Assembly: GCF_007644105.1 (NCBI RefSeq)
Contig: NZ_VFAC01000020.1
Location: 1 to 64,000 of the forward strand
Reading direction: 5' to 3'
Length of the DNA stretch: 64,000 bases
Origin: Elioraea rosea
Lineage (GTDB): Bacteria > Pseudomonadota > Alphaproteobacteria > Acetobacterales > Acetobacteraceae
In this document: piece after piece, positions 11,873-26,959 of the stretch
Layout: every line of letters begins with the position of its first letter
Position numbering within the stretch: position 1 is the first letter of the stretch
Made by a program: the position numbers and the translations under genes
Notes under the pieces: generated by a model
Databases searched by the model: none
The model's input: the letters and a program-made list of their open reading frames with translations, nothing else
What the model was told of the DNA's origin: nothing

Positions 11873-13271
11873 TCTGATGCGCAAGCTCAGTTTCGAGAGC
11901 AGAAAGGAAGCGCGCAATGTTGCCGACGCGCATTACAGGTTCTCCGGGAAGGCCAGGCGGGCCCATCATGAAGCGGTGCTGGACGCTGAACAACTTGGCG
12001 ATCTTACGGATGACGGTGGCGTCGTCCGGCGGCGCGACGATCGCCTCGCGGATGCGCTCAGCGAGGCGGAGGATCGGCGTCGGGCCGCCGAGAGCAAAGG
12101 AGATAAGCGATGGCCCAAGCGTGAGGGCAGGGCGACCGAACAGGAAGGCTTCGAGCGTCGCGGAGCCGGTGACAGAAATGGTCACGGAAGCACGCTTGAT
12201 GATCTCGCGGCTGTCGAGGTCAACGCGCGCAACAACGACGCCGGATTTCTTGGCAAGCGATCGCACAAAGCCTACTGGGCGGACACCCGCAGCTGCCCAG
12301 TGCTCCTTCACCAGGAGGACGTGATCATGTGGCAGGGCATGGCGGATCGCATCGATCGACCGCATCTGGTCGACGAAGAAAGGAGCGGGAACGTTGATCG
12401 AGGCCTCGGGTGTATAATGCAGTGGGTAATAGACAAACTTCTTTGGAAGCGCCTCGAGCGTTCCGATGTCGAACTGCCGTGCAGCCCGGGCTGCCCGCAT
12501 CCGCCGTGTTGCTTTCAGTGCCCATAGATTGTTCCGCCAAAGGCTCGTTCTCAGGTGTTCGCGGTCAAACAAGTCAGGTCGTGCTGCAGCCCGACGGACG
12601 AAGTTCATCGCCCGCTTTGGCAGCGGCGGAGAGAAGCTCGGAAGGATGGAGCCGTCCGCCTCTGCATGATCGTTCCTACCCAGCGCGGAGGTGGGCTGCT
12701 CACGGAAGGCACGTATGAAGGCCTCAGCGCGCGTGCAGGCCTCTTGCGTTGCGGTGGCTCGCACCGGGAGCGATTGATAAGCGTCAGGCGCGAAGAATGT
12801 GCCGCCAAGATTGCGCATGTTCACGGGGACGAGAAGGCGGATGCCTAACTCAGCCGCCAGAGCGGCGAGGATCTTGCTTTCGAGCCCCTCAATATGCGCC
12901 ATCAGTATGTGGGTTGGCGCGATCTTCTCTACGAAGGCCTTGTACAGCGTGTAGATCTCGATCGCGGCGGCGAGCTGGGTGCGCGCAGGCAGATGCTTGA
13001 ACGCGAACTTCTCAGCGTCAATGTCGGCGTGGATTGAACCCGCGTAGGAGGTGAGCGCATCGAGCTCGAGTGGCAGCGCCGAACGGCGTGCCTGGTTATG
13101 CTCGAGGCAGAAGATCCGCCCGCGTGGGATCACCGCTGCCATGGTCTCGATGTGGTGGTCTGTCGGCAGGATGATCGACCATGTAATGCCCGGCGACACT
13201 TTCGCCGCGTGTTCGAGCAGGTGGCGAAATACGAAGCAGTAGGTGCCGAAGCCGTGGATGAGGATCCGCAT
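11862..13271 (-). CDS. Capsule-synthesis-like protein within the pse operon; candidate glycosyltransferase
   Basis: A 469-residue soluble protein between PseC and PseGH. The N-terminus MRILIHGFGTYCF and the later segments YYPLHYTPEASINV, LLVKEHW, and SVTGSATLEAFLFGRPAL resemble the C-terminal half of Capsule_synth (KpsS/KpsC, CMP-Kdo transferases) and related GT-B fold proteins. Those enzymes use CMP-linked nonulosonate-like donors, so a pseudaminyltransferase role is attractive, but that is inference. No motif proves activity. It overlaps PseC by TGATG at 13271-13273 and overlaps PseGH by 11 bp, so it belongs to the operon. Its base composition looks less GC-biased than its neighbours, which could reflect transfer. 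Confidence 0.65.
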   Translation of the reverse strand: MRILIHGFGTYCFVFRHLLEHAAKVSPGITWSIILPTDHHIETMAAVIPRGRIFCLEHNQARRSALPLELDALTSYAGSIHADIDAEKFAFKHLPARTQLAAAIEIYTLYKAFVEKIAPTHILMAHIEGLESKILAALAAELGIRLLVPVNMRNLGGTFFAPDAYQSLPVRATATQEACTRAEAFIRAFREQPTSALGRNDHAEADGSILPSFSPPLPKRAMNFVRRAAARPDLFDREHLRTSLWRNNLWALKATRRMRAARAARQFDIGTLEALPKKFVYYPLHYTPEASINVPAPFFVDQMRSIDAIRHALPHDHVLLVKEHWAAAGVRPVGFVRSLAKKSGVVVARVDLDSREIIKRASVTISVTGSATLEAFLFGRPALTLGPSLISFALGGPTPILRLAERIREAIVAPPDDATVIRKIAKLFSVQHRFMMGPPGLPGEPVMRVGNIARFLSALETELAHQNAA

Positions 13272-14476
13272 CAGATGCCTAGGCCCAGTGAAGCAGCGAG
13301 CGCGTCAACGACGCGGTCGACATCGCTGTCGGCCATGCCGGGGAAAAGGGGGAGCGACAGCGTGCGCGCGTAGTAATGCGCCGCTCCCGGCAGGTCGGGC
13401 AGCGCCTGGCGGCGCCGCCAGTAGGGCTGCCAAGGCACGGGAACGTAATGAACCTGCGTTCCGATGCCGGAGGCGCGGAGCGTTCGCATCACCTCTGTCC
13501 GGCTACGCCGCAGCGCTGCAAAGTCGATCCGCACCGCATAGAGATGCCAGGCTGGCGTGCAGGCCTCCGGCCGAACCGGCGGCAGGACGTGCGGCGCGAA
13601 GGGAGCAAGCAGCGAATCGTAGCGCGCTGCCAGCGCGGCGCGGCGGGCAACGAAACGGTCGAGCTTGGCGAGCTGGCTGCGGCCGAGGGCGCAGGCAAAG
13701 TCGGGCGCGCGGTAGTTGAAGCCTGGCTCTGGCATCTCGTAGTACCAGGGTGCCGGGGCGCCGGCCTCCGTGCCCTGTTCCGAGAGTTCCCACGCCGCCG
13801 GGTCATGCACCATGCCGTGGCTGCGGAACCGGCGCATTGCCTCCGCAATCGCAGGGTCATTTGTCGTCACGACGCCGCCCTCGCCCATCGCGATCGTCTT
13901 GACCGGGTGGAGCGAGAATGTCGCGATGCGACTGTGCGCGCATGCGCCGACCGTCGTCGACGCACCATTTGCGGTGTAGTGCGTTCCGAGGGCGTGGCAC
14001 GCATCCTCGATGACCGCAGCGCCGAGCCCCTCCGCCGCCTCGGCGATACCGGGAGGATCGGCCACGGGACCCTTCAGGTGCACCGGCAACACGGCCTTCA
14101 CGGGCCCGGGCGCGCGACGCGCCGCTTCGCGCACCGTCTCCGGTGTGATCGTTCCTGACTCAGGATCAACGTCGGCGAAAAGGACATCGGCGCCGACATA
14201 CACGGCGGCATTCGCCGTCGCGAGAAAAGTGATGGCAGGCACGATCACGCAGTCACCCGGACCGAGGCCGAGCGCGTGGGTGGCCATGTGCAGCGCCGCC
14301 GTGCCGGAATTGCAGGCAAGCGCATGCCTGGCGCCGACGGCCCTGGCGAAGTCGCTCTCGAACGCCCCGACGGCCGGGCCGGTCGTCAGCCAATCGCCGC
14401 GCAGCACCGCCGCGACGGCTTCGATGTCGTCCTCCTCGATGCACTGGCGGCCATAGGGAAGGAAGAGGCCGCTCAT
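13271..14476 (-). CDS. pseC: UDP-4-amino-4,6-dideoxy-N-acetyl-L-altrosamine transaminase
   Basis: A 401-residue DegT/DnrJ/EryC1/StrS aminotransferase. NSGTAALHMA (56-65) binds the PLP phosphate, IEDACHALG (156-164) supplies the ring-stacking and Asp residues, and K193 in SLHPVKTIAMGEGGVV is the PLP Schiff-base lysine. The N-terminal PYGRQ-I-DIEAV-VL-WLTTGP pattern is characteristic of PseC. It converts the 4-keto product of PseB to the 4-amino sugar. It overlaps PseB by 4 bp (14473-14476), as usual for pseBC pairs. Confidence 0.92.
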   Translation of the reverse strand: MSGLFLPYGRQCIEEDDIEAVAAVLRGDWLTTGPAVGAFESDFARAVGARHALACNSGTAALHMATHALGLGPGDCVIVPAITFLATANAAVYVGADVLFADVDPESGTITPETVREAARRAPGPVKAVLPVHLKGPVADPPGIAEAAEGLGAAVIEDACHALGTHYTANGASTTVGACAHSRIATFSLHPVKTIAMGEGGVVTTNDPAIAEAMRRFRSHGMVHDPAAWELSEQGTEAGAPAPWYYEMPEPGFNYRAPDFACALGRSQLAKLDRFVARRAALAARYDSLLAPFAPHVLPPVRPEACTPAWHLYAVRIDFAALRRSRTEVMRTLRASGIGTQVHYVPVPWQPYWRRRQALPDLPGAAHYYARTLSLPLFPGMADSDVDRVVDALAASLGLGI

Positions 14477-15492
14477 GCTGCGCTTGCCAGAAGGCTCAGC
14501 AGTCCGTCGCGGTCGAGCCAGTCGGTATTGATGTCACTCTCGTAGCGGAAGCCTTCCGGTACCGGAACGCCTCCGTGCGCGCGGAAATCGCCGCGGCCAT
14601 ACATGACGATGGCAGGCTCGATTACGTAACGGTCACCAAGGTCGAGCGTGGTCCGCGCATCGTCCGCCGTGATCATCGCCTCGTGCAGCTTCTCGCCGGG
14701 CCGAATGCCGACGACCTTCTGCGGCAGGCCCGGCGCCATGGCGGAGGCGAGGTCGGTGATCCGCATGCTCGGGATCTTCGGCACGAAGATCTCGCCGCCC
14801 GTCATCATCGACGCTGACGAACAGACGAAATCGACGCCCTGAGCGAGCGTGATCCAGAACCGCGTCATCCGCGGGTCGGTGATCGGAAGATGGTCGGCCC
14901 CTTCGGCGATCAGGCGCCGGAACAGCGGCACGACCGACCCGCGCGAACCGACGACGTTGCCGTAGCGCACCACCGAGAACCGGCAGCCACCCTTGCCGGA
15001 GAGGTGGTTCGCAGCAATGAAGATCTTGTCGGAGGCGAGCTTACTCGCACCATACAGGTTGGCCGGGTTCGCGGCCTTGTCGGTCGACAGCGCGATCACC
15101 CGCTGCACCCCTGCAGCGATGGCCGCCTGAACGACATTCTCGGCGCCGAGTACGTTTGTTCGGATGCACTCGAACGGATTGTACTCCGCGATCGTGACGT
15201 GCTTCAGCGCAGCGGCGTGGACAATGATGTCGATGCCTCGCAGCGCCTGGGTGAGGCGGGCGGCGTCGCGAACATCGCCGATGAAGTAGCGGAGCACGCC
15301 GCGTGGATCGCGGCTCGCGAACTCCTGCTCCATCTCATACTGCTTCAGCTCGTCGCGCGAGTAGATCACAAGCCGCCGGGGTGTGGCGCGCGTGAGCAGG
15401 GCGGCGACGAAGGCGCGGCCGAAACTCCCGGTGCCGCCTGTCACGAGCACGGCCTTGCCGTCGAAGAATCGTGCGGGATCGGCTTCGGTCAT
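14473..15492 (-). CDS. pseB: UDP-N-acetylglucosamine 4,6-dehydratase (inverting)
   Basis: A 339-residue short-chain dehydrogenase/reductase of the PseB/FlaA1 group. TGGTGSFG (18-25) is the NADP site, STDKA (136-140) gives the catalytic Thr-Asp-Lys, and YGASK (147-151) the Tyr/Lys pair; Asp-Lys instead of Asp-Glu marks the inverting dehydratase/5-epimerase. The cytosolic form lacks the membrane domain of WbpM/PglF. It catalyses the first committed step to pseudaminic acid. A 91-bp gap upstream is the largest between 8.6 and 25.5 kb and contains a TTGACC/TACGAG pair with 17-bp spacing (15587 down to 15559), so a separate pse promoter is possible but weak. Confidence 0.93.
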   Translation of the reverse strand: MTEADPARFFDGKAVLVTGGTGSFGRAFVAALLTRATPRRLVIYSRDELKQYEMEQEFASRDPRGVLRYFIGDVRDAARLTQALRGIDIIVHAAALKHVTIAEYNPFECIRTNVLGAENVVQAAIAAGVQRVIALSTDKAANPANLYGASKLASDKIFIAANHLSGKGGCRFSVVRYGNVVGSRGSVVPLFRRLIAEGADHLPITDPRMTRFWITLAQGVDFVCSSASMMTGGEIFVPKIPSMRITDLASAMAPGLPQKVVGIRPGEKLHEAMITADDARTTLDLGDRYVIEPAIVMYGRGDFRAHGGVPVPEGFRYESDINTDWLDRDGLLSLLASAA

Positions 15493-15583
15493 CGCGGTTC
15501 CGGATGTGATATGGCTTGGCGGGCGCGGTCCTGCTGCGTCGGATGGCGTCCTTGCGTGCTCGTAGCCAGGGGGTGCCGGGTGG

Positions 15584-16456
15584 TCAAGCCGCTCCTCCTG
15601 CCAGCGAGCGGAGGTGCTCCTCGAGGCTTCGCCGCGGCTGCCAACCGGGCAGCGGCGCGCCGCCGCGCCAGGGCATCATGATCTCGCCCGGGCGGTAGGG
15701 CAGCGTGCCCCATTGCGCGGGAACAGGGCGACCCAGCGCCTCAGTCACCGTGTCGGCCATCTCGCGCAGCGTCATCGGCATGGAAGAAGAGAGGGCGAAG
15801 CGGCTGCCGCTGGCAATCGTGCCGTCGAGCAATCCTCGTGCCGCGTGCAGGATGGCATCGACGACATCCTCGACGTGAACGAGATCGATCGCCTGGCCGC
15901 CCGGTGAAAGCGCCAGCGACGTGCCGGTTCGGGCTGCCTCTATCATCCTGTCGAGGATCTTGCCGCGCGTGTCGTTTGGGCCGAACGTGTCGAACACGAT
16001 CAACGTCGCGGTTGCGAGGCCGTTGCTGCGCGCGATGGCGCAGAGCACGGTCTCGAAGGCCTGCTTGCTCGCGGCATAGAGCGTGGCCGGGGTCGCGCCA
16101 TCGCCCGCATGCTGGGCGCCGGTGCCAAGCGTGACGAAGGCGCGCGTGCCGCACCGTGCGGCAGCGTCGGCAAGCCTTGCACCGAACACGATGTTCGCCT
16201 CGAGCATCGGCGCGATGTCGCCATGCGCGTGGCCATGCTGGTAGCGCGTGGCGAGGTGCAGCGCCGCCTCTGGCCGCACCGAGGCGAGCAGCGCGTCGAG
16301 AGGTCCGGCATCATGATGGACCGTGACGGAGCGCGGGAGACGCGTCGCATCGCTCATTGGGCGAAGGAGCGCGTGCGTGTCGTGCCCGTCGGCAACCAGA
16401 CGCGCAACGAGGTGGCGCCCGATGAAGCCTGTCGCGCCGGTGACCAGCACCTTCAT
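15584..16456 (-). CDS. NAD-dependent epimerase/dehydratase family protein
   Basis: A 290-residue extended SDR. VTGATGFIG (5-13) is the NAD-binding loop, TLGTGAQ holds the catalytic Ser/Thr position and YAASK the Tyr-Lys pair. The C-terminal region PLPGWQPRRSLEEHL is like GDP-/CDP-/dTDP-4-keto-6-deoxyhexose reductases. Lying after rfbF-rfbG and the C-methyltransferase, it may be the final 4-ketoreductase of the CDP-linked sugar. That assignment is by context only. ATG 16456 overlaps the AsnB stop by 4 bp; a longer frame to 16765 is inside asnB. Confidence 0.75.
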   Translation of the reverse strand: MKVLVTGATGFIGRHLVARLVADGHDTHALLRPMSDATRLPRSVTVHHDAGPLDALLASVRPEAALHLATRYQHGHAHGDIAPMLEANIVFGARLADAAARCGTRAFVTLGTGAQHAGDGATPATLYAASKQAFETVLCAIARSNGLATATLIVFDTFGPNDTRGKILDRMIEAARTGTSLALSPGGQAIDLVHVEDVVDAILHAARGLLDGTIASGSRFALSSSMPMTLREMADTVTEALGRPVPAQWGTLPYRPGEIMMPWRGGAPLPGWQPRRSLEEHLRSLAGGAA

Positions 16457-18339
16457 GGCTGCGCTGCTCCCGGGCGAGCGCCAAGCCAGGCCTGCACCAT
16501 CAGCACGCACCAGATCGTTGGCGCGGCCGTGCGCTCGCCGCCGAGCAGACGCGTCCAGAGCGCGCGCACGCGCGACACGTCGAATCCCAGCACGCCGCTC
16601 AGGCGCGCCGGGGTGAGCAGTGCCTCCGCCCAGTCCCGCAACGGCCCGGCGAGCCATCGCGCCAGCGGAACGCCGAAGCCCATCTTCGGACGGTCGAGCA
16701 GCGCGCGCGGGATGCGGCGCTCGGCAACGCGGCGGAGGATCGCCTTGCCGCCGCGCTGATCCCACAGCATCGCATCGGGCAGCGAGGCGGCAAAGGAGAG
16801 GATGCGGTGATCGAGCAGCGGCACGCGCGTCTCGAGCGCGACCGACATCGACGCGCGATCCACCTTGGCGAGGATGTCGTCCGGCAGGTAGGCGAGGGTG
16901 TCGTGCAGCATCGCCGCACGCCGGAGCGGCAGGTTCGGCCAGGGCGTGGCAGTTGCGGGCGTGGCGCCGGGCAACAGGGCGGCCGCCTCGGCGCCAGTTG
17001 CCATGAGGCGGGCGTAGAGATCGCCGGGGCTGCGCGCATCGAGCATTGCGAGCGCTCGGGCAAAGCGCGAGGCGGGGCGGATGCGCCGCATCACGCGGCC
17101 GGCGCCCGCGGCGAGAGGGCGGACCGGGCCGGGCACGCGATCGGCCAAGGCCGAGAGGCGGGCGAGCCAGCCATAGCGGTCATACCCCCCGAACATCTCG
17201 TCCCCGCCATCGCCGGAGAGCGCCACCGTCACGTGACGACGCGCGAGACGCGAGACGAGCACGGTCGGAACCTGGGAACTGTCGCCGAATGGCTCGTCAT
17301 AGAGCCGGCCAAGCTCCGGAACGATCGCGAGCGCCTCCTGTTCCGTCGCCGTCAGCGTCGTATGGTCGGTGCCGAGATGCCGCGCGACCGCTTCGGCATG
17401 CGGCGCCTCGTCGAAGCCTTTCTCTGCAAACCCGATCGTGAAGCTCCGTGCAGCGCCGTCGCCGCGCATCGCCGCGACCACGGTGGAAGAATCGATGCCG
17501 CCCGAGAGGAATGCGCCGAGCGGAACATCGGCGACGCGGCAGAGACGAACGGCATCGTCGATCAGCGCGGCGAGCCTCTCCTCGGCGTCCTCCGCACTCC
17601 CTGTGAACGGCGCGGCGCGGGCCGATGCGACCGTCTCATTGGCGGACCACCATGCCCTGGGTAGCGGCATCGTGCCGGCCGGCGCGTCGCCCGCGAGGGT
17701 GAGGAGCGTTCCAGGCGGAAGCTTGCGGATACCCGCATAGGCGCACAGCGGTGCCGGAACCGTGCCAGTCACGACCATCGTCGCGATCGCGTCACGATCA
17801 GGATGGCCGGCGAAGCCATCGTCTGCCTCGAGCGCGCCGAGCTCGGAGCTGAACAGGAAAGCCTGGCCGTTCCAGCCATAGGCGAGCGGCTTCTGGCCAA
17901 ACCGGTCGCGCGCGAGGCTGAGGCTACGGCGCCCGCGGTCCCACAGTGCGAGGGCGAACATGCCGTTCGCTGCATCGAGCGCGGCGGCGAGCCCGTCGCG
18001 CGCGATCAGCGCGAGCAGCACCTCCGTGTCGGAGCCGCCGCGGAAAGTTTCGCCACGCGCCTCGAGGCCGCGGCGCAGCTCGGCGTGATTGTAGATCTCG
18101 CCGTTGTAGGTGATGACGTAGCGGCCGCAGGCCGAGGGCATCGGCTGCGCGCCACGCTCGGAAAGGTCGATGATCGCGAGGCGCCGGTGCCCGAACGCGA
18201 TGCCGGCCTCTGCGTCTGCCCAGATCTTCTCTCCGTCGGGGCCACGATGGGCGAGCGCGCGCGTCATCGCCGTCACTCGCCGCGTGAGCTCGCCATGAGG
18301 CGCGCCGCCTGGAAGGAGGAGGCCGGCAATGCCGCACAT
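16453..18339 (-). CDS. Asparagine synthase-type glutamine amidotransferase
   Basis: A 628-residue AsnB-like protein. Cys2 of MCGIAG is the N-terminal glutaminase nucleophile, with RGPDG (32-36) and YNGEIYNH (78-85) for glutamine binding. The synthetase half has the PP-loop LSGGIDSS (278-285) and LSGDGGDEMFGGYDRY. Such proteins in O-antigen or capsule loci (WbpS-, VioA/AsnH-like) amidate sugar uronates rather than make asparagine. The nearby UDP-GlcNAc dehydrogenase would supply a uronic acid acceptor. It starts one base after the GT4 stop and overlaps the epimerase. Confidence 0.85.
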   Translation of the reverse strand: MCGIAGLLLPGGAPHGELTRRVTAMTRALAHRGPDGEKIWADAEAGIAFGHRRLAIIDLSERGAQPMPSACGRYVITYNGEIYNHAELRRGLEARGETFRGGSDTEVLLALIARDGLAAALDAANGMFALALWDRGRRSLSLARDRFGQKPLAYGWNGQAFLFSSELGALEADDGFAGHPDRDAIATMVVTGTVPAPLCAYAGIRKLPPGTLLTLAGDAPAGTMPLPRAWWSANETVASARAAPFTGSAEDAEERLAALIDDAVRLCRVADVPLGAFLSGGIDSSTVVAAMRGDGAARSFTIGFAEKGFDEAPHAEAVARHLGTDHTTLTATEQEALAIVPELGRLYDEPFGDSSQVPTVLVSRLARRHVTVALSGDGGDEMFGGYDRYGWLARLSALADRVPGPVRPLAAGAGRVMRRIRPASRFARALAMLDARSPGDLYARLMATGAEAAALLPGATPATATPWPNLPLRRAAMLHDTLAYLPDDILAKVDRASMSVALETRVPLLDHRILSFAASLPDAMLWDQRGGKAILRRVAERRIPRALLDRPKMGFGVPLARWLAGPLRDWAEALLTPARLSGVLGFDVSRVRALWTRLLGGERTAAPTIWCVLMVQAWLGARPGAAQP

Positions 18340-18340
18340 C

Positions 18341-19483
18341 TCAGGCGCTCATCGGCAGGACGGAGGCCGGCGCGCGGCCGGACGTGAGCGCAGCATAGAG
18401 AGAGACGTAATGCGCCACGCACGACTCGAGCCCGTAGCGGGCCTGCGCTCGTTCTGCCGCCGCTGCGCCAAGCGCCTCGCGCAGGTCATGATCGTTGCCG
18501 AGGCGGACAAGCGCGTCCGCGAGTGCCGAAGGCTCGCGCGGCGGCACGACGAGGCCGGCCTCGGCAACGGCTTCCGGGCTGCCGCCGACATCGGTGACGA
18601 TCGTCGGCAGCCCTGCAGCCATCGCCTCGATCACGGCGTTGGGCGAGCCTTCCTCATGCGAGGCGAGCGCGAAGACGTCTGCTGCACCGAGCAGGTCGGC
18701 GACGTCGTCACGCTGTCCCACAAGCTTCACCTGGTCGATCACCGCAAGCGCCTCGGCCTGCGCGGTGAGAGCGACGCCGTAGCCATCGTCGCGCCCAGCG
18801 CAGAGCAGCATCGAGCCTGGCGGCAGATGCGGCCGGGCCTTGGCGAAGGCCTCGATGAGGTCGGCGTGTCCCTTGTAGGGAATGAGGTTGGCGACGCAGA
18901 GGATGGCGATGGCACCCTCGGGGATGCCGAGTGCGGTGCGCAGTTCCGCCCGCGGTCGCGAGGGCGGGGCGGTGATCACGCCGTTCGGCAGGAGTGCCAC
19001 CCGTTCGGCCGGTGCGCCCTCGGCGAGAAGCTCCTCGCAGACCGCGCGGCTGTTGCCGATGAGCGCATCCATACGCCCGTGCAACCAGCGCTCCATGCGC
19101 GCGGCGCGGGGATGCGCGAGCTGATACGTGTTCAGGCTGCGGCGACTTGCGGCCCGTGGCCGCCGGCCGCTGAGCCAGCAGGCGAGCCCGCCGATGATCG
19201 TCGCCTCGGGGAGGAAGAAGTGAGACACGTCGGGCCGCCAGGCGAGCGCCTCGCGAAGCACCGCTGTGAATCCGGAGACGGACCCGCTCGCGTCGCGCAC
19301 CTCGACGCCGTCCGCCTCGAGCCTCGCCGCCATCTCTCCGCGTCCGCGAAGCGACACGACACGCACCGAAGCGCCGCGTGCGACGAGCGCGGGAAGCACG
19401 GCGGCGAGATGACGCTCCGTCCCGCCGAGCCCGAGCCCGGTGACGACGACGAGCAGCCGGAAGCCGCGCGGCAGCTCAGCCAT
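18341..19483 (-). CDS. Family 4 glycosyltransferase (GT-B)
   Basis: A 380-residue GT-B glycosyltransferase. [10 protein letters not shown] near residue 20 binds the acceptor/nucleotide cleft, LPNGV marks the interdomain region, and [17 protein letters not shown] contains the E-x7-E motif of retaining GT4 enzymes. No membrane segment. It overlaps the upstream acetyltransferase by 8 bp if started at ATG 19481-19483; a start 14 codons earlier is possible but lies deep in the neighbour. The donor is unknown. Confidence 0.87.
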
Positions 19484-20051
19484 CAGCTTGCCTCGCGGCT
19501 TCGAGGAAGGCTTCGACCGGCCCATAGAACGCCTGTTCGAACGCAGCGATCCGCGCGTCCGGCCAGTCCCACCAACAAAGGTTCAGCAGCGCAGAGATGG
19601 TCGGCTCATCGAACCGGTGCCGGATCAGCCGTGCGGGGTTCCCAACCATCACCGCATAGGGCGGAACGTCGCGCGCCACAACCGCGCCGGCGCCGATTAC
19701 CGCCCCGTCGCCCACGGTCACGCCAGAGAGGATAATGGCGCGCGCGCCGATCCACACGTCGTTGCCGATGGTCACGCCGCCGCGCGTCACGGCATCCGCA
19801 TTCCCGTGCCGTGGCCGAAGCAGCCTGCTTCGGAAGGGAAACGTGCTCGCAAGATCGGTGCGATGATCGGCCTCGCCGAAGATCAGGACGTCGGGTCCGA
19901 TCGAGCAGAAGGCGCCGACCCGGATCGGCGCGCGTGCTGTTGGCCGGACGAGATTGCGCGGGGCGAGGCCATAGCTGTGGCGCCCGATCTCGACATGGGC
20001 CGGCCAGCGTCCCGGGGCGCGGCCGCGCAGACGGTCCAGCAGTCCTCTCAT
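19476..20051 (-). CDS. Left-handed beta-helix O-/N-acetyltransferase (CatB/XAT type)
   Basis: A 191-residue hexapeptide-repeat acyltransferase. Isoleucine-patch turns run from about residue 90 to 145 ([28 protein letters not shown]), ending in the hallmark [19 protein letters not shown] around residue 65 carries the probable catalytic His of xenobiotic/virginiamycin acetyltransferase relatives. In this setting it most likely acetylates a sugar hydroxyl or amino group of the glycan precursor. ATG 20051 gives an ATGA overlap with the upstream gene; an in-frame GTG two codons earlier is less likely. Confidence 0.83.
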
Positions 20052-20590
20052 GCGCACGCCTCGAAGGGCGGGAAGGCGAGGTCACGCTCGCTGATCACGG
20101 AAGGTGCTGCCGGCCAGGCGATGCCGAAGGCCGGGTCGTCATAGCGCGCGCCACGGGCCAGGGCGGAGGCGTAGCGCGTGCCCATGAGGTATAGGATGGC
20201 GCACGCGTCGGCGAGCGTCAGGAACCCGTGCGCGAAGCCTTCCGGAATGGCGAGGGCGCGGCCATTCGCCGCGCTGAGCTCCTCAGCGTGCCAGCGCCGG
20301 AAGGTCGGGCTTCCGGGGCGGATGTCGATGGCGACATCCCAGATCGCTCCGGCGATGCAGCGAACGATCTTCGCTTCCGCCGCCGGCGCATCCTGCCAGT
20401 GCAGCCCGCGAAGCGTGTGGCGGCGATCGTTCGTCGAGAGATTGGTCTGCCGAACCGTCATCGCGAAGCCTGCCTCGGCCAGGGCCTCGGCGCAGTGAAG
20501 GCGCATGAAGCTGCCACGCCCGTCCCGCTGCGGAATCGAGTGCAGCAGGAGTAGCCCAGGCAACGGCGTCGGGGAAATCGCGAGGCTCAT
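20048..20590 (-). CDS. dTDP-4-dehydrorhamnose 3,5-epimerase-like protein
   Basis: A 180-residue cupin of the RmlC family. RGLHWQ carries the catalytic His, [15 protein letters not shown] the substrate strand, IPEGFAHGF the conserved cupin turn, and YLMGTRYA the catalytic Tyr region. It is adjacent to a CDP-glucose 4,6-dehydratase and a C-methyltransferase, not to RmlA/B/D, so its substrate is more likely a CDP-4-keto-6-deoxy sugar than dTDP-rhamnose intermediates. ATG 20590 overlaps the methyltransferase stop by 4 bp; upstream in-frame codons to 20692 fall inside that gene. Confidence 0.82.
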
Positions 20591-21858
20591 GCCGGGACGA
20601 ACACCTCGAGCCTTGGTACCGCGACAGCGAATCGCCCGCCCCATTCCGCGACGAACGCGAGGTCGGCCGCGATCTCGCGGCGCAGGTTCCACGGCAGGAT
20701 CAGAACGATGTCGGGCTTCTCGTCAGCGATCGCCTGAGGCGCCAGGATGGGAATGTGCGAGCCGGGCAGGTAACGGCCCTGCTTCGAGGGCGCACGGTCA
20801 ACCACGTAGGCGATGCGGCCATCCTCTGCGGTGATGCCGCAATAGTTCAGAAGCGTGTTGCCCTTGGCCGCCGCACCATAGGCGGCGACGCGCTTGCCCT
20901 CCGCGCGCATCGCGTCGAGAAAGGCGAGCAGCCCGTCGCGCACGGAGGCGCAGCGGGCCGCGTAGCCAGCATAGGCGGCATCGGTGTCGAGCCCCGCCGC
21001 CGCCTCCTTCGCACGAACCGCTTCGAGGCCAGGGCCAGGCGCGCGCTTCGCCGCCGCATGCGCGACGAAAAGGCGAAGCGAGCCGCCATGCGTCGGCAGC
21101 TCCTCGACGTCGAATACGGCAAGCCCCTGTGCCGCGAGGACGCGTTCGGCCGCGGCGAGGGAGAAGTAGCAGTAGTGCTCGTGATAGATCGTGTCGAACT
21201 GGAGCTCCCGCAGGAGGTTCAAGAGATGCGGAAACTCGAGCGTCAGCGTGCCATCGGGAGCGAGAAGGGCGGCGAACCCGGCGGCGAAATCATTCAGGTC
21301 CGGCACATGCGCGAAGACGTTGTTGGCAGCGATCAGGTCGGCCGGGCCATCCCTTTCGCGGATGCGCTCTGCTGTCGCGCGGCCGAAGAAGGCAACTTCC
21401 GTCGGCACGCCGCGCGACTGCGCCTCGGCCGCGACATTCGCCGCAGGCTCGATGCCGAGGCAGGGTATGCCCATCGCGACGAAATGGCGGAGAAGGTAGC
21501 CGTCATTGCTCGCGACCTCGACGACGCGGCTTGCCGGGCCGAGGCCGAGCCGATCACGCATCACCTGCGCGTAGCGCTCGGCGTGCGCAACCCAGCTTGT
21601 CGCGACGGAGGAGAAATACGCGTAGTCGGAGAAGATCTCCTCCGGCGGCACCGCTGCGCCGACCTGAACGAGCCGGCAGGCGCGGCAAACCCGTGCATGC
21701 AGGGGATAGCGCGGTTCGGGGCGGGAGAGCGCCTCCTTTGTGAGGTACGAATTGGCGAGAGGCTGCGCGCCGAGATCGACGAGCGAGAGAGAGAGAGCCT
21801 CGCCGCAGAAGCGGCAGGTGCGGTGGCCGTCACCGCCGATGGGGCGGAGAGCGCTCAT
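20587..21858 (-). CDS. Sugar C-methyltransferase (TylCIII/NovU family)
   Basis: A 423-residue protein with the three-part layout of NDP-hexose C-methyltransferases. The N-terminal zinc domain has CRFCG and CRACRLVQ; the middle SAM domain has VVEVASNDGYLLRHF; the C-terminal Rossmann-like domain has AYGAAAKGNTLLNY. The YHEHYCYF segment supplies the His/Glu base typical of the TylC3 group, and FPHLL precedes it. Such enzymes methylate the carbon next to a 4-keto group. Directly downstream of rfbG, it probably acts on a CDP-4-keto-6-deoxyhexose to give a branched sugar. It overlaps both neighbours by 4 bp. Confidence 0.85.
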   Translation of the reverse strand: MSALRPIGGDGHRTCRFCGEALSLSLVDLGAQPLANSYLTKEALSRPEPRYPLHARVCRACRLVQVGAAVPPEEIFSDYAYFSSVATSWVAHAERYAQVMRDRLGLGPASRVVEVASNDGYLLRHFVAMGIPCLGIEPAANVAAEAQSRGVPTEVAFFGRATAERIRERDGPADLIAANNVFAHVPDLNDFAAGFAALLAPDGTLTLEFPHLLNLLRELQFDTIYHEHYCYFSLAAAERVLAAQGLAVFDVEELPTHGGSLRLFVAHAAAKRAPGPGLEAVRAKEAAAGLDTDAAYAGYAARCASVRDGLLAFLDAMRAEGKRVAAYGAAAKGNTLLNYCGITAEDGRIAYVVDRAPSKQGRYLPGSHIPILAPQAIADEKPDIVLILPWNLRREIAADLAFVAEWGGRFAVAVPRLEVFVPA

Positions 21859-22925
21859 GCCGCGCGCCTGTTGCATCGTGCCATGTGCGCGTCGAGTGCC
21901 GCATCGGCAAGCCGCGCTGCGTCTTCGCCCGCCGCAAGCGCGCGGTAGAAGCGCGCGGCATCGTCGATCGCCTCCGCCGCGCCGTGCAGCGCGTGCCAGC
22001 CGAGAGTCGCCAGCGCCCGGGAGGGGTCCAGCGAGAGGGTGCGCTTCTCTGCGATCGCGGCGGCAGCGTCATGCACCGGAGGCGGCGCATCGAATGCCAC
22101 GGCAACGCGACGCGCGACCTCCTCGGCGGTAAGGCGCGGCGCGGAGGGGGCGGGGCCGAAATTCAGCGCCTGTGGCGCATCGCCACGCAGGAGCGCCTCG
22201 GCGTGCAGGATGTAGCCGCGCAGGCAGTCCCGCACGTCCTGCCAGGGGCGGGTCGAGCCTGGCGCGCGGAGGATCACGGCCCGCCCCTCGCGCGCAGCCC
22301 GCACGGTGTCGGGGATCAGGCGTGCGGCTCCGAAGTCGCCGCCGCCGACGACGTTGCCGGCGCGGGCGGATGCCACCGCCGCCCCTCGCTTGGCGAGCAG
22401 GGCGGCGTAGGAGGGGAGCAGAACCTCGCAGGCCGCCTTGCTCGCGGAATATGGGTCGTCTCCGCCGAGCGGTGCAGCCTCGGCGAAGGCTGTTCCCGTG
22501 TCGTCGTTCCGGTACACCTTGTCGCTGGTCACGACCAGCACGGCCTTGGGCCCATCCGTGCGGCGAAGCGCATCGAGAAGGCCCATCGTGCCGATGACGT
22601 TCGTCGCCACCGTTCCGGCCGGGTTGTCCCAGCCGCGCGGCACGAGCGCCTGCGCGGCGAGATGGAACACGGCCGAGGGTTCGGCCTGCGTCACGGCGGC
22701 CGCAACCGCATCGGGCTCTCGCAGGTCGCCAATCGTTTCGGTCACGCCGGCGCGAAGCGGATCGAGCGCGGCGGCTTCGCCTTCCGGTGCGAGCGCGAAG
22801 CCGTGCACGCGCGCGCCGAGGCGCGTGAGCCAGCGGGCAAGCCAGGCGCCCTTGAAGCCCGTGTGGCCGGTCAGCAGGACGCGGCGGCCAGCCCAGGCGC
22901 GCGGATCGGGCAGCGCCTGCGTCAT
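21855..22925 (-). CDS. rfbG: CDP-glucose 4,6-dehydratase
   Basis: A 356-residue extended SDR. LTGHTGFKGAWL near residue 17 is the distinctive NAD loop of CDP-glucose dehydratases, VVTSDKVYRN holds the Thr-Asp-Lys active site and DPYSASKAACE the Tyr-Lys pair. RPWQDVRDCLRGY is also conserved in the family. It makes CDP-4-keto-6-deoxyglucose from the product of the adjacent RfbF. ATG 22925 overlaps the RfbF stop by 4 bp; a start 12 codons earlier would lie further inside that gene. Confidence 0.92.
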   Translation of the reverse strand: MTQALPDPRAWAGRRVLLTGHTGFKGAWLARWLTRLGARVHGFALAPEGEAAALDPLRAGVTETIGDLREPDAVAAAVTQAEPSAVFHLAAQALVPRGWDNPAGTVATNVIGTMGLLDALRRTDGPKAVLVVTSDKVYRNDDTGTAFAEAAPLGGDDPYSASKAACEVLLPSYAALLAKRGAAVASARAGNVVGGGDFGAARLIPDTVRAAREGRAVILRAPGSTRPWQDVRDCLRGYILHAEALLRGDAPQALNFGPAPSAPRLTAEEVARRVAVAFDAPPPVHDAAAAIAEKRTLSLDPSRALATLGWHALHGAAEAIDDAARFYRALAAGEDAARLADAALDAHMARCNRRAA

Positions 22926-23695
22926 TGCCACACGGCCCATGGCGCGCGGCCTGACCGCCACTGCTCCTCGATCACCGATTTGTCGCGCAGCGTATCCATC
23001 GGCTGCCAGAAGCCGTCATGGCGGAAGGCGCGCAGCTCGCCGCGCGCGGCAAGCGCCTCGAGCGGCCCCGCCTCCCACACCGTGCCGTCGCCCTCGATCG
23101 CGTCGAGAACGGAGGGCTCGAGAACGAAGAACCCGCCATTGATCCACCCGCCATCGCCGAGCGGCTTCTCGACGAAGCGTGTCACCGCGCTGTCGGCGAG
23201 CTCGACGGCACCGAACCGTCCTGGCGGGCGCACCGCCGTCAGCGTCGCCGCCTTGCCGTGCGCGCGATGGAAGGCGAGAAGCGCGCCGATGTCGATGTCG
23301 GCCACGCCGTCGCCATAGGTCATGCAGAATGTCTCGCCGGGCGTGAGATGCCGTGCCGCGCGCTTCAGGCGCCCGCCGGTCATCGTCGCATCGCCCGTCT
23401 CGGCGAGCGTCACGCGCCAGGGCTCTGCCGGTGCGTCATGGTAGGTGATGCTGTTCGCGGCGAGGTCGATCGTGACGTCGGCGCGGTGCAGCGTCCAGTT
23501 GGCGAAGTATTCCTTCACCATGTAGCCCTTGTAGCCGAGGCACACGACGAAGTCGGTCATCCCGTAATGGGCATAGATCTTCATGATGTGCCACAGCATG
23601 GGCTGGCCGCCGATCTCGACCATCGGCTTCGGCCGCACCACGGTCTCTTCGGCCAGGCGCGTGCCGAGGCCGCCAGCGAGGATGACGACCTTCAT
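22922..23695 (-). CDS. rfbF: Glucose-1-phosphate cytidylyltransferase
   Basis: A 257-residue nucleotidyltransferase. LAGGLGTRLAEET (6-18) and RPKPMVEIGGQPMLWHIMK (22-40) are the CTP- and Mg-binding signature of RfbF, and TYGDGVADI gives the metal-binding Asp. It forms CDP-glucose. It lies 6 bases downstream of the aminotransferase and overlaps rfbG by 4 bp. Confidence 0.94.
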   Translation of the reverse strand: MKVVILAGGLGTRLAEETVVRPKPMVEIGGQPMLWHIMKIYAHYGMTDFVVCLGYKGYMVKEYFANWTLHRADVTIDLAANSITYHDAPAEPWRVTLAETGDATMTGGRLKRAARHLTPGETFCMTYGDGVADIDIGALLAFHRAHGKAATLTAVRPPGRFGAVELADSAVTRFVEKPLGDGGWINGGFFVLEPSVLDAIEGDGTVWEAGPLEALAARGELRAFRHDGFWQPMDTLRDKSVIEEQWRSGRAPWAVWQ

Positions 23696-23701
23696 GGGCG
23701 C

Positions 23702-24850
23702 TCAGGCGAGAACATCGCGGACGGCGGAGATGATCCGGTCCTGCGTCGTCTCGTCGAGATACGGGTGGAAGGGCAGCGCGAACACCTCCCCCGCCAGCCG
23801 CTCACTCACGGGCAGGCCGTTCCCCGCCACGGGGTGCTTGGCGTAGGCCTTCTGGTGGTGCAGTGGCTTAGGATAGTAGATGGCCGTCGGGATGCCGCGC
23901 GCCTTCAGGCCGGCGAGCACCGCGGTGCGGTCCCGCCCCGGCGTGCGCAGCGTATACTGCGCCCACACCGAGACGTTGTGCGGCGCCACCGTCGGAACGA
24001 TCGCGACGTCTGCGAGCGCTGCGTTGTAGCGGGCCGCCACCGTCTGCCGCGCTTCGATCTCGGCCGGGAAGACGCGAAGCTTCTCGAGCAGCACCGCGGC
24101 CTGCACCGTGTCGAGCCGCCCGTTCATGCCGACGCGGATGTTCTCGTACTTGTCTTCGTTGTTCTGCCCGTGCACGCGCAGGGACTGGAGCACATCGAGC
24201 GTCTCGGGGTCGTGGCAGAACACCGCGCCGCCATCGCCGTAGCAGCCGAGCGGCTTGGCAGGGAAGAAGCTCGTCGCCGCCATGTCGCCGATCGCGGCGA
24301 CGTGCTTGCCGTGATGCGTCGCCCCGAAGCTCTGCGCGGCATCCACCAGAACCTTCAGTGCGTGCGCGCGCGCGATGGGAAGCAGCGCGTCGTAGTCGGC
24401 CGGCTGGCCGAAGAGGTCGACGGTGATGACCGCGCGCGGCCTGAGCCCCATCCGCTTCGCGGTCTCGATGCCGGCCTCGAGGCTTGCGGGGTCCATGTTG
24501 AAGCTGTCCTCACGCACGTCGACGAACACAGGCGTGGCGCCGAGCCAGGCGACGACCTCCGCGGTCGCTGCGAAGGTGAAGGAGGGGCAGAGCACCGCGT
24601 CGCCCGGCCTGATCTCCCAGGCCATCAGCGCGAGCGCGAGCGCATCGGTTCCGTTCGCGCAGGAGAGCGTGTGCGGAACGCCCGCGAAGGCCGAAAGCTC
24701 CGCCTCGAGCTGCGCCACTTCGGGGCCGAGGATGAACCGGCAGGACCGCACCACCTTCAGGATCGCCTCCTCCATGCGCGGGCCGATCGCGCGGCGCTGC
24801 GCATCGAGGTCGATGAAGGCGATCGGCGGGGCGACGTTCGTGTCGGGCAT
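23702..24850 (-). CDS. DegT/DnrJ/EryC1/StrS sugar aminotransferase (WecE/WbpE-like)
   Basis: A 382-residue PLP enzyme. ANGTDALALAL (63-73) binds the PLP phosphate, VDAAQSFGA the ring, and SFFPAKPLGCYGDGGAV contains the Schiff-base lysine; NGRLDTVQAA is the second substrate block. It resembles 3-amino-sugar transaminases such as WbpE or FdtB. It lies next to the UDP-GlcNAc dehydrogenase but no WbpB-type oxidoreductase is visible, so the substrate could instead be a CDP- or dTDP-keto sugar. The start overlaps the regulator stop by one base (TGATG). Confidence 0.87.
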   Translation of the reverse strand: MPDTNVAPPIAFIDLDAQRRAIGPRMEEAILKVVRSCRFILGPEVAQLEAELSAFAGVPHTLSCANGTDALALALMAWEIRPGDAVLCPSFTFAATAEVVAWLGATPVFVDVREDSFNMDPASLEAGIETAKRMGLRPRAVITVDLFGQPADYDALLPIARAHALKVLVDAAQSFGATHHGKHVAAIGDMAATSFFPAKPLGCYGDGGAVFCHDPETLDVLQSLRVHGQNNEDKYENIRVGMNGRLDTVQAAVLLEKLRVFPAEIEARQTVAARYNAALADVAIVPTVAPHNVSVWAQYTLRTPGRDRTAVLAGLKARGIPTAIYYPKPLHHQKAYAKHPVAGNGLPVSERLAGEVFALPFHPYLDETTQDRIISAVRDVLA

Positions 24851-25542
24851 CAGGGGTTCTCCTCGGGGGCGGCGGGGGCGGCGACCACGCGCGCCAACTC
24901 GGGCATGACGATGGCGTCGGCCGGCAGGCCGAGGCGGGAGGCAAGGCGCTCGGCCTCACGGCGCAGCGCGCCGTCGGCGTCGGCGTCGGCGATGACGATA
25001 GCGTCTGCGGCGATGCTGCCCGGCGCCTCCGTGAGCACGGCATGCCCGGCGCAGCGGCGGTTGCGCCCGGACGGGTCGAGGATGGCAGCGACCGCGAGGC
25101 CCGAGTCGGTGGCGCTGAGCACCAGCACCTCGGCGAGGTCACCTGCGCCCACGAGAAGGATCCGTGTCCGGTTCCGGCGCGCGAGCTCGTCGGTCAGCTC
25201 GGTGCAGGCGGCGCGGGCGCGGCGATAGAAGCCCATGCTGTCGGTGAGGTACTGGGCGGTGAGGCGCCCCTTCTCCGTCATGCCCCTTGGCGTTAGGTAG
25301 TACGCGTAGCGGCGGAAGGGGGCAGAGCGCACCTTGACGAGCCCCTTGCGCACGCAGCGCTTCAGGTAGGCGTTCGTCAGGCCGAGGGCGATGCCGAGTT
25401 CGCGCGCGAGGCCGCGCTGCGTCTGCGATGGCGAACGCTCCACCGCGGCGAGCAGGCCGAGAAGGATAGCGGGGTCTTCCGCCTCCTCACGCCGGCTGGG
25501 GGGGCGGGAGGGCGACAGGCGCTCTGCGTGTGTGTCGGGCAC
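24850..25542 (-). CDS. Winged-helix regulator of the glycan operon with C-terminal Rossmann-like domain
   Basis: A 230-residue protein in two parts. Residues about 25-110 form a winged helix (SQTQRGLARELGIALGLTNAYL, wing near FRRYAYYLTP, then GMTEKGRLTAQYL) that matches MarR-type EPS-associated regulators. Residues 125-215 begin RILLVGAGDLAEVLVLSA, a dinucleotide-type Gly-rich loop, followed by AAILDPSGRNRRCAG. The second part could sense a nucleotide or nucleotide sugar; that is inference. It is the first gene before the aminotransferase. Two palindromes 20-60 bases upstream look like its own operators. Confidence 0.75.
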   Translation of the reverse strand: MPDTHAERLSPSRPPSRREEAEDPAILLGLLAAVERSPSQTQRGLARELGIALGLTNAYLKRCVRKGLVKVRSAPFRRYAYYLTPRGMTEKGRLTAQYLTDSMGFYRRARAACTELTDELARRNRTRILLVGAGDLAEVLVLSATDSGLAVAAILDPSGRNRRCAGHAVLTEAPGSIAADAIVIADADADGALRREAERLASRLGLPADAIVMPELARVVAAPAAPEENP

Positions 25543-25562
25543 GACGGTGAAGGGGCTACACC

Positions 25563-25601
25563 GTTCACATCGTGAACGTCAAGGGTGTTCACAGGCTGAA
25601 C
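25563..25601. promoter_or_regulatory. Paired palindromic operators upstream of the glycan regulator
   Basis: A perfect 15-bp palindrome GTTCACatcGTGAAC lies at 25563-25577 and a near-perfect copy GTTCACaggCTGAAC at 25587-25601. Centres are 24 bp apart, close to two or more helical turns, so two dimers could bind one face or cooperate. They sit between the dehydrogenase stop (25613) and the regulator start (25542), where the operon promoter must be. Confidence 0.7.
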
Positions 25602-25612
25602 GGCCAGCCGCC

Positions 25613-26959
25613 TCAGGCGAGGACCAGATTGGGGCCGGAGGCACCCGCCCGGCGGCAGGCGTTGCGGGTATCGACGACGAGCGGGCAGGCGGCGAGGAGG
25701 CCGGCATAGTCCACGCCGTCATGGTCGGTCACCACCATCGCTGCGTCGTAGAGCGCGAAGGAAGCGGTGTTCCACGGCACGGAGCGGCGGCCGGCGAGGT
25801 GTGGATACTCGCGTGAGCGACGAATCTCGGGAACGTAGGGGTCGTGGTAGTCCACCGCGGCGCCGCGCTCCTCGAGAAGCTCGATTATCTTGAGCGTCGG
25901 GCTTTCCCGCATGTCGTCCACGTTCTTCTTGTAGGCGGCGCCGAGCAGAAGGATCCGCGCGGCCTTCAGGCCCTTGCCTGCGCGGTCGTTCAGCGCGTCG
26001 GCGAGCTTCTGCACCACCCAGCGCGGCATGGCCGTGTTGATCTCGCCGGCGAGCTCGATGAAGCGCGTCGCCACCTCGTGCTCGCGCGCCTTCCAGGTGA
26101 GGTAGAACGGGTCGATCGGGATGCAGTGCCCGCCGAGGCCCGGGCCCGGCCAGAACGGCATGAACCCGAACGGCTTGGTGGAGGCGGCCGAGATCACCTC
26201 CCACACGTCGATGCCCATCGGCGCGTAGATCTGCTTCAGTTCATTCACCAGCGCGATGTTCACCGCGCGGAAGATGTTCTCGGTGAGCTTCACCGCCTCC
26301 GCCGTCGCCGCCGAGGAGACGGGCACGGTGCGCGGAACCACCGCGTCATAGAGCGCCAGGGAAAGGCTCAGCGCCTCCTCGCCCTCGGCGCCGACGACCT
26401 TGGGGATGCGGCTGGTCGAATGGTCGATGTTGCCTGGGTCCTCGCGCTCCGGAGAGTAGGCGAGGAAGATGTCAGTGCCGGAGCGGAGCCCGCCGCGCTC
26501 CAGGATCGGCTTGACCACCTCGGCCGTCGTTCCCGGATAGGTGCTGCTCTCGAGGATCACGAGCTGGCCCGGCCGCAGGGTCGCGGCGATCGTTTCCGCG
26601 GTCGCGACCACATAGGTCATGTCCGGCTCGCGATGGCGGGTCAGCGGCGTCGGCACGCAGATGAGAAGCGCATCGGCCTCGCCCAGCCTGCCCGGGTCGG
26701 CCGTCACGGCGAAGCGGCCGGTGGCGTTCATCGCCCCGATTACCTCCCCGCCGATGTGATGGATGTAGGACCGCCCGGCTGCCAGCGCCTCCACCTTTCC
26801 CGGATCGGTATCGAAGCCGAGCACGGGAAAGCCGCGCTCGACGAAGATCCGGGCAAGCGGCAGGCCGACATAGCCGAGCCCTATGACGCAGACGGTGGCC
26901 GTCCGGGCGGCGATGCGGGCAGAGAGGGCGGCGGCGTGGGGGGACGCGGGGGCGTGCAT
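25613..26959 (-). CDS. UDP-N-acetylglucosamine/UDP-sugar 6-dehydrogenase (WbpA-like)
   Basis: A 448-residue nucleotide-sugar dehydrogenase. GLGYVGLPLA (27-36) is the NAD loop, GFDTDP the adenosine-ribose Asp, ESSTYPGTT the middle block and GPGLGGHCIPIDPFYLTWK carries the catalytic Cys. The sequence around ARTATVCVIGLGYVGLP and GRSYIHHI is closer to UDP-GlcNAc dehydrogenases (WbpA/Vi TviB class) than to UDP-glucose dehydrogenases. Product would be a UDP-N-acetyl-hexosaminuronate, a possible acceptor for the AsnB-like enzyme downstream. It is separated from the regulator by 70 bp that hold the operators. Confidence 0.88.
   Translation of the reverse strand: MHAPASPHAAALSARIAARTATVCVIGLGYVGLPLARIFVERGFPVLGFDTDPGKVEALAAGRSYIHHIGGEVIGAMNATGRFAVTADPGRLGEADALLICVPTPLTRHREPDMTYVVATAETIAATLRPGQLVILESSTYPGTTAEVVKPILERGGLRSGTDIFLAYSPEREDPGNIDHSTSRIPKVVGAEGEEALSLSLALYDAVVPRTVPVSSAATAEAVKLTENIFRAVNIALVNELKQIYAPMGIDVWEVISAASTKPFGFMPFWPGPGLGGHCIPIDPFYLTWKAREHEVATRFIELAGEINTAMPRWVVQKLADALNDRAGKGLKAARILLLGAAYKKNVDDMRESPTLKIIELLEERGAAVDYHDPYVPEIRRSREYPHLAGRRSVPWNTASFALYDAAMVVTDHDGVDYAGLLAACPLVVDTRNACRRAGASGPNLVLA

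Follow-up and report, generated by a model that had tools for sequence, protein, structure and literature searches.

The window, which is the whole analysed stretch of 64,000 nucleotides, held a polysaccharide and glycan gene cluster on the minus strand, a setting of the TIGR04176 type. Its regulator gene lay between a nucleotide-sugar dehydrogenase gene and the further glycan genes. Two 15-bp palindromes were located directly upstream of the regulator. In reading direction, the features were as follows.

25613 to 26959, minus strand: nucleotide-sugar dehydrogenase by profile matches, the gene upstream of both sites
25587 to 25601, no strand: distal candidate operator GTTCACAGGCTGAAC, which fits GTTCA-N5-TGAAC and precedes the proximal one by 24 bp
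25577 to 25582, minus strand: -35 box TTGACG, overlapping the proximal site by its last base; an exact TTGAC precedes 97 of the 217 perfect sites in relatives
25563 to 25577, no strand: proximal candidate operator GTTCACATCGTGAAC, a perfect palindrome in the -35/-10 spacer of the minus-strand promoter, at the same place in relatives
25553 to 25558, minus strand: presumed -10 box TAGCCC, weak, with an 18-bp spacer, placed by the position of TA in relatives
24850 to 25542, minus strand: regulator of 230 aa with a winged helix (HTH_24, MarR_2; MarR_EPS-like) and a Rossmann-like C-terminal half, from profile matches and predicted structure
23702 to 24850, minus strand: DegT/DnrJ-family aminotransferase by profile matches, the next gene, its ORF sharing 1 base with that of the regulator
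22922 to 23695, minus strand: glucose-1-phosphate cytidylyltransferase (TIGR02623, 433.9 bits against a cut-off of 300.25)
21855 to 22961, minus strand: CDP-glucose 4,6-dehydratase (TIGR02622, 335.7 bits against a cut-off of 278.45)
20587 to 21876, minus strand: C-methyltransferase of glycan type (profile match to Methyltransf_13/14)
13271 to 20692, minus strand: more glycan-type ORFs with mechanical ORF bounds, presumably of the same operon

The ORFs in the last stretch comprised a 3,5-epimerase, a hexapeptide transferase, a glycosyltransferase, a protein of asparagine-synthase type, an epimerase, Polysacc_synt_2 and a second DegT aminotransferase. Read along the minus strand, the order was distal site (25601-25587), a link ending in TTGAC, proximal site (25577-25563), TAGCCC (25558-25553) and the GTG start of the regulator at 25542. 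The proximal site was 20 bp from this start, and 11 bp separated the distal site from the end of the dehydrogenase ORF. Compared with the perfect form GTTCACNNNGTGAAC, the distal 15-mer showed a single mismatch and the proximal one none, and the two started 24 bp apart. The two palindromes, their distance and their place before the regulator gene, all taken from the preliminary description, were thus reproduced. Its claim of phasing did not hold. A distance of 24 bp corresponds to 2.3 turns of B-DNA, which is no whole number and leaves strict helical phasing unsupported, and spacings varied among relatives.

Within the window, a scan allowing up to two mismatches gave five matches against 1.07 expected, and five were reached in none of 100 shuffles. 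The preliminary description had proposed a genome scan for other copies, and this found the perfect form GTTCACNNNGTGAAC once in the 4,487,661-base genome and its backwards control not at all. With one mismatch, GTTCACNNNGTGAAC occurred at five more places elsewhere in this genome. The pattern GTTCA-N5-TGAAC was present at five distinct places in the 4.49 Mb, two of which were the pair in the window, and none lay before the nucleotide-sugar dehydrogenase gene. The remaining three lacked the TTGAC box. Two of them were within ORFs, and the third stood 67 bp ahead of an ORF that does not belong to the glycan cluster. The latter place (around position 1500 of locus L214, G000:C1:346281) precedes an ORF of 295 aa and is possibly a chance match. 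The idea that the window genome has a larger regulon was rejected, as TTGACGTTCANNNNNTGAAC with up to two mismatches gave seven places, of which one was exact.

The regulator matched TIGR04176 MarR_EPS over residues 29-120 with 66.2 bits and an E value of 2.3e-18 (68.1 bits in the genome search), under the curated cut-off of 88 bits. It passed the gathering score of Pfam MarR_2 (28.5 against 27 bits) and stayed below that of PF01047 MarR (13.4 against 24.6 bits). The closest named relative among the best 80 of 229 was encoded in a MAG of Elioraea sp., with 77% identity. The third genome of the genus, G002, held neither the regulator nor an exact pattern match. The predicted structure of the regulator (pLDDT 83.6, pTM 0.63, residues 111-220 mostly above 90) comprised a winged helix, a long helix at residues 85-122 and a Rossmann-like domain. 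In VIA-align, which covered the top chains of Foldseek so that absence from its list excludes nothing, the first part of the model aligned with Lrp/AsnC winged helices (4pcq_A, Z 9.5, 54 residues, 2.7 Å). The C-terminal half aligned with Rossmann domains of glycan enzymes, namely 3nkl_B (Z 9.4, 96 residues, 3.6 Å), 8t53_A WbaP (Z 9.0, 89 residues, 2.6 Å) and 4eaa (Z 9.0, 84 residues, 3.5 Å). Periplasmic binding proteins scored equally or higher (7ylt_A, Z 10.5, 100 residues, 3.1 Å). Chains of the redox-sensing repressor Rex reached Z values of at most 8.5 (3wg9_B, Z 8.5, 89 residues, 2.7 Å), tied with others. Foldseek itself gave no match under E 0.001 with the regulator model, and a PDB sequence search with profile A3 returned weak matches only, the best being a designed protein at E 0.042. 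The model thus suggests a weak resemblance of the C-terminal half to Rossmann domains. Since the Rossmann matches were tied across many proteins and Foldseek returned nothing under E 0.001, any ligand named for this half is a guess.

Conservation of the palindrome was followed across related regulators. The motif was read from the window and the seven seed loci L003-L009 and then tested on further relatives. Of 160 upstream regions counted as distinct by the first 150 bases of the matched gene stretch, 149 had a profile score above 140 bits and were kept. The locus sample comprised 30 loci and 58 further regions; the rest were mostly fragments or weak matches, G162:C376 and G100:C106 were also left out, and L238-L240 were not used. 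In raw counts, uncorrected for shared ancestry like all locus and genome counts given here, a perfect GTTCA-N5-TGAAC was present upstream in 126 of the 149 distinct regulator regions, 79 of which held at least two sites. With the window and the seed loci set aside, 119 of 141 regions carried a perfect site, compared with 0 in 100 mononucleotide shuffles. Upstream regions showed 217 sites in 53,362 bp and the rest of the same loci 9 sites in 1,138,727 bp, a difference in density of about 500-fold. None of eight controls (three permuted half-sites, a reversed half-site and four other spacings) had a match upstream. One control half-site matched 15 times outside the upstream regions, where the real motif matched nine times, and never inside. 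A scan of spacers from N0 to N9 upstream of the regulators found N5 only, save for two cases of N0. The flank 5' of the -35 box was near background, with no base above 0.41 from -35 to -7, which argues against a general conservation of the upstream region. No perfect site was found in 23 of the 149 regions, some of which held a version with 9 of 10 bases. At matched positions, the loci L104, L107, L131, L154 and L020 showed a variant GTTCG half (CGAAC on the other strand), which may be linked to a changed recognition helix.

The position of the sites relative to promoter elements was also conserved. At the -10 place of an 18-bp spacer, TA was found for 89 of the 97 TTGAC-linked perfect sites and for 6 of the 120 other sites. 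The mirror-image GTCAA followed none of the 97. The bracketing by TTGAC and TA in relatives indicates that the proximal operator sits in the spacer of a promoter. The palindrome thus lies between promoter boxes ahead of the regulator's own gene, the arrangement of an autoregulatory sigma-70-type operator and, more generally, of spacer-embedded autoregulatory operators; a strict consensus scan reported no promoter at the window locus, where the -10 box is poor. This presumed box was located just 10 bp before the GTG (25542-25558), with similar arrangements in L003, L004 and L009, so that the transcript of the regulator may be nearly leaderless.

Under a relaxed match, with minima of 8 of 10 and 4 of 5 bases, 114 relatives had a promoter-embedded site. 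Of these, 56 had a second site, defined by at least 9 of 10 bases at a distance of 15-60 bp, downstream only, 26 had it upstream only and 11 had one on either side; 21 had none. The window belonged to the upstream kind with its second site at -24, an offset found in 12 of the 114. Perfect neighbouring sites in relatives were mostly spaced 21-25, 27-28 or 33 bp. The comparison did not support a fixed pair as basic unit, as the congener L003 carried the proximal, promoter-embedded site alone and the 21 relatives just mentioned had no second site in this range.

Regulator and motif also co-occurred across genomes. The regulator was present in 94 of 385 class genomes using profile A1. The TTGACGTTCANNNNNTGAAC pattern was present in 38 of the 385, at 44 places, with one match for its backwards control. 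All 38 genomes were among the 94 with the regulator (Fisher p 6e-27, uncorrected for relatedness), and 37 of the 44 places were on the strand of the regulator, no more than 200 bp ahead of it. The strict promoter pattern was absent in 56 of the 94 regulator genomes. Away from the regulator, five of the seven places preceded glycan-type genes, encoding Polysacc_synt_2 dehydratases (two), an RmlD-type reductase, a nucleotidyl transferase and an ABC transporter. One of the other two reached the contig end and one had no ORF of 80 aa within 400 bp. Nine perfect sites in the 149 loci fell beyond the 360-bp upstream stretches. They included one before a class III aminotransferase (L150, with a similar ORF in L143) and one before a NusG-like gene (L160); no glycan target was identified for the remaining ones. 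The NusG-like protein of L160 (7471-7992) was checked by Pfam and assigned to PF02357.

A NusG-like ORF was a frequent neighbour of the long-form regulator. It was found nearby on the same strand in 132 of the 149 loci, and in 56 of the 58 loci of at least 9 kb. The window held no NusG-like ORF and its genome one NusG only, so that in this lineage the switch seems to operate with no NusG-like partner. The arrangement in relatives resembles the RfaH/NusG-like antiterminators of polysaccharide operons; it differs from them in that the window lacks such a gene and in that the NusG-like protein is a neighbour and no part of the operator.

The TIGR04176 loci used from the phylum were of two kinds: 17 short forms, each scoring above the cut-off, and 11 fused forms, of which seven scored above and four below it. 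The fused loci L202 and L203 were near-identical, and the fragmentary L201 and L213 were excluded. The short members showed the N5 site upstream in 14 of 17 cases. All 11 fused forms (L202-L212) were preceded by GTTCA-N4-TGAAC and none by the N5 version. They came from one alphaproteobacterial family (f23). Over 13 whole fused-form genomes, GTTCANNNNTGAACA gave 40 matches and its backwards control seven, and a coordinate comparison placed an N4 site just before the fused gene in all 13. Two of the fused proteins were annotated and carried a winged helix together with PUA_2, ATP-sulfurylase and APS_kinase (L236:330-2411, minus strand; L237:553-2631, plus strand). A CapD-like enzyme had been considered for the fused proteins of about 694 aa and was discarded in view of these Pfam assignments. 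The winged-helix core could be aligned across the three regulator forms. N4 or N5 spacing went with the type of regulator, an argument for the regulator as the binder. From its sequence, the fused winged helix-ATP sulfurylase/APS kinase protein is a candidate for a self-regulating trigger enzyme.

In its domains and surroundings, the window protein resembled TIGR04176 MarR_EPS, given the winged-helix match, the glycan locus and the shared GTTCA-N5-TGAAC upstream of the short members. It was set apart by its score below the cut-off and by an extra Rossmann-like half outside the model of 105 positions. Rex operators have a different sequence. Rex shares the succession of winged helix and Rossmann domain, and its chains were among the VIA-align matches; the C-terminal match was weak and tied with many Rossmann proteins, and no Rex model was among the Pfam or NCBIfam matches of the regulator.

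The proposal of the preliminary description that the palindromes are candidate operators of the adjacent regulator gained strong support from the comparison, by the regions beyond the seed loci and by the presence of the regulator in 38 of 38 pattern genomes. Judged from sequence, the pair very probably serves as docking sites of the cluster's own regulator. It is highly likely that the palindromes are operators of the downstream regulator, which would repress both its own gene and the glycan operon until released by a ligand. A dimer of the regulator would bind GTTCA-N5-TGAAC. The proximal site would fill the spacer of a sigma-70-type promoter reading the regulator and then the glycan genes, and a dimer bound there would keep RNA polymerase out. 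Its place between the -35 and -10 boxes points to autorepression of a regulator-first glycan operon. Affinity or cooperativity would be gained from the distal site. Derepression would follow when the Rossmann half binds a small ligand, perhaps a nucleotide sugar or dinucleotide. What the comparison shows directly is the site, where it lies, how well it is conserved and its association with the regulator and the regulator subtype. We infer the sign of regulation from the position of the site and the ligand from the fold.

With the same sites and the same regulator, activation would be conceivable, either by MerR-like bending or untwisting of the spacer or from the distal site. The site in the spacer, the slightly long 18-bp spacer, the poor -10 box of the window and a second site upstream of the -35 box, as in the 26 relatives with an upstream site only, are consistent with an activator. 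MerR promoters have spacers of 19-20 bp, longer than the 18 bp found here, and the 56 relatives with a downstream site only carry it just past the -10 box, the usual seat of a repressor. Activation is accordingly rather improbable. It is much less probable still that the palindromes are real operators recognised by a different protein, such as the NusG-like partner or a DNA-binding protein whose gene lies elsewhere. Binding of the regulator to the sites is predicted, and the NusG-like ORF is common next to it. However, every pattern genome held the regulator, the N4 or N5 spacing went with the regulator form, and the window has the sites yet no NusG-like neighbour and a single NusG in its genome.

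That the palindromes arose by chance, or serve the dehydrogenase gene upstream as an RNA hairpin or terminator, can hardly be seriously considered. The short distance of the distal site from the end of the dehydrogenase ORF would suit a terminator; no terminator-like site was detected in 25400-25800, and promoter boxes bracket the proximal site in relatives. Chance is excluded by the conservation, as seen in the upstream density and the shuffles.

Repression by the regulator at its own promoter is an ordinary mechanism as such; the specific operator is what the literature searched lacks. In that literature, which included few subscription journals, no GTTCA-N5-TGAAC operator or DNA target of this regulator family was described. 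For Acidithiobacillus caldus, the excerpt of PMC10599003 mentions a gene for a MarR family EPS-associated regulator that was upregulated under high salt.

A broader reading is tentative, and its truth appears slightly less plausible than its failure. GTTCA-N4/5-TGAAC would be the ancestral operator of a whole MarR_EPS superfamily. In many alphaproteobacteria, a regulator with its own Rossmann sensor for a metabolite, encoded beside a NusG/RfaH-like antiterminator, would form a two-tier switch acting on initiation and elongation of glycan operons. One alphaproteobacterial family would have a self-regulating trigger enzyme, in which the winged helix is joined to ATP sulfurylase/APS kinase, with a one-base shift in operator spacing. 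The frequent pairing of regulator and antiterminator would tie initiation to elongation control in glycan operons. The one-base spacer shift together with a domain fusion provides a natural experiment on dimer geometry and operator spacing. A little-studied, widespread family of surface-glycan regulators thereby gains a probable DNA target, along with a precise and testable operator, the geometry of its promoter and candidates for the regulon.
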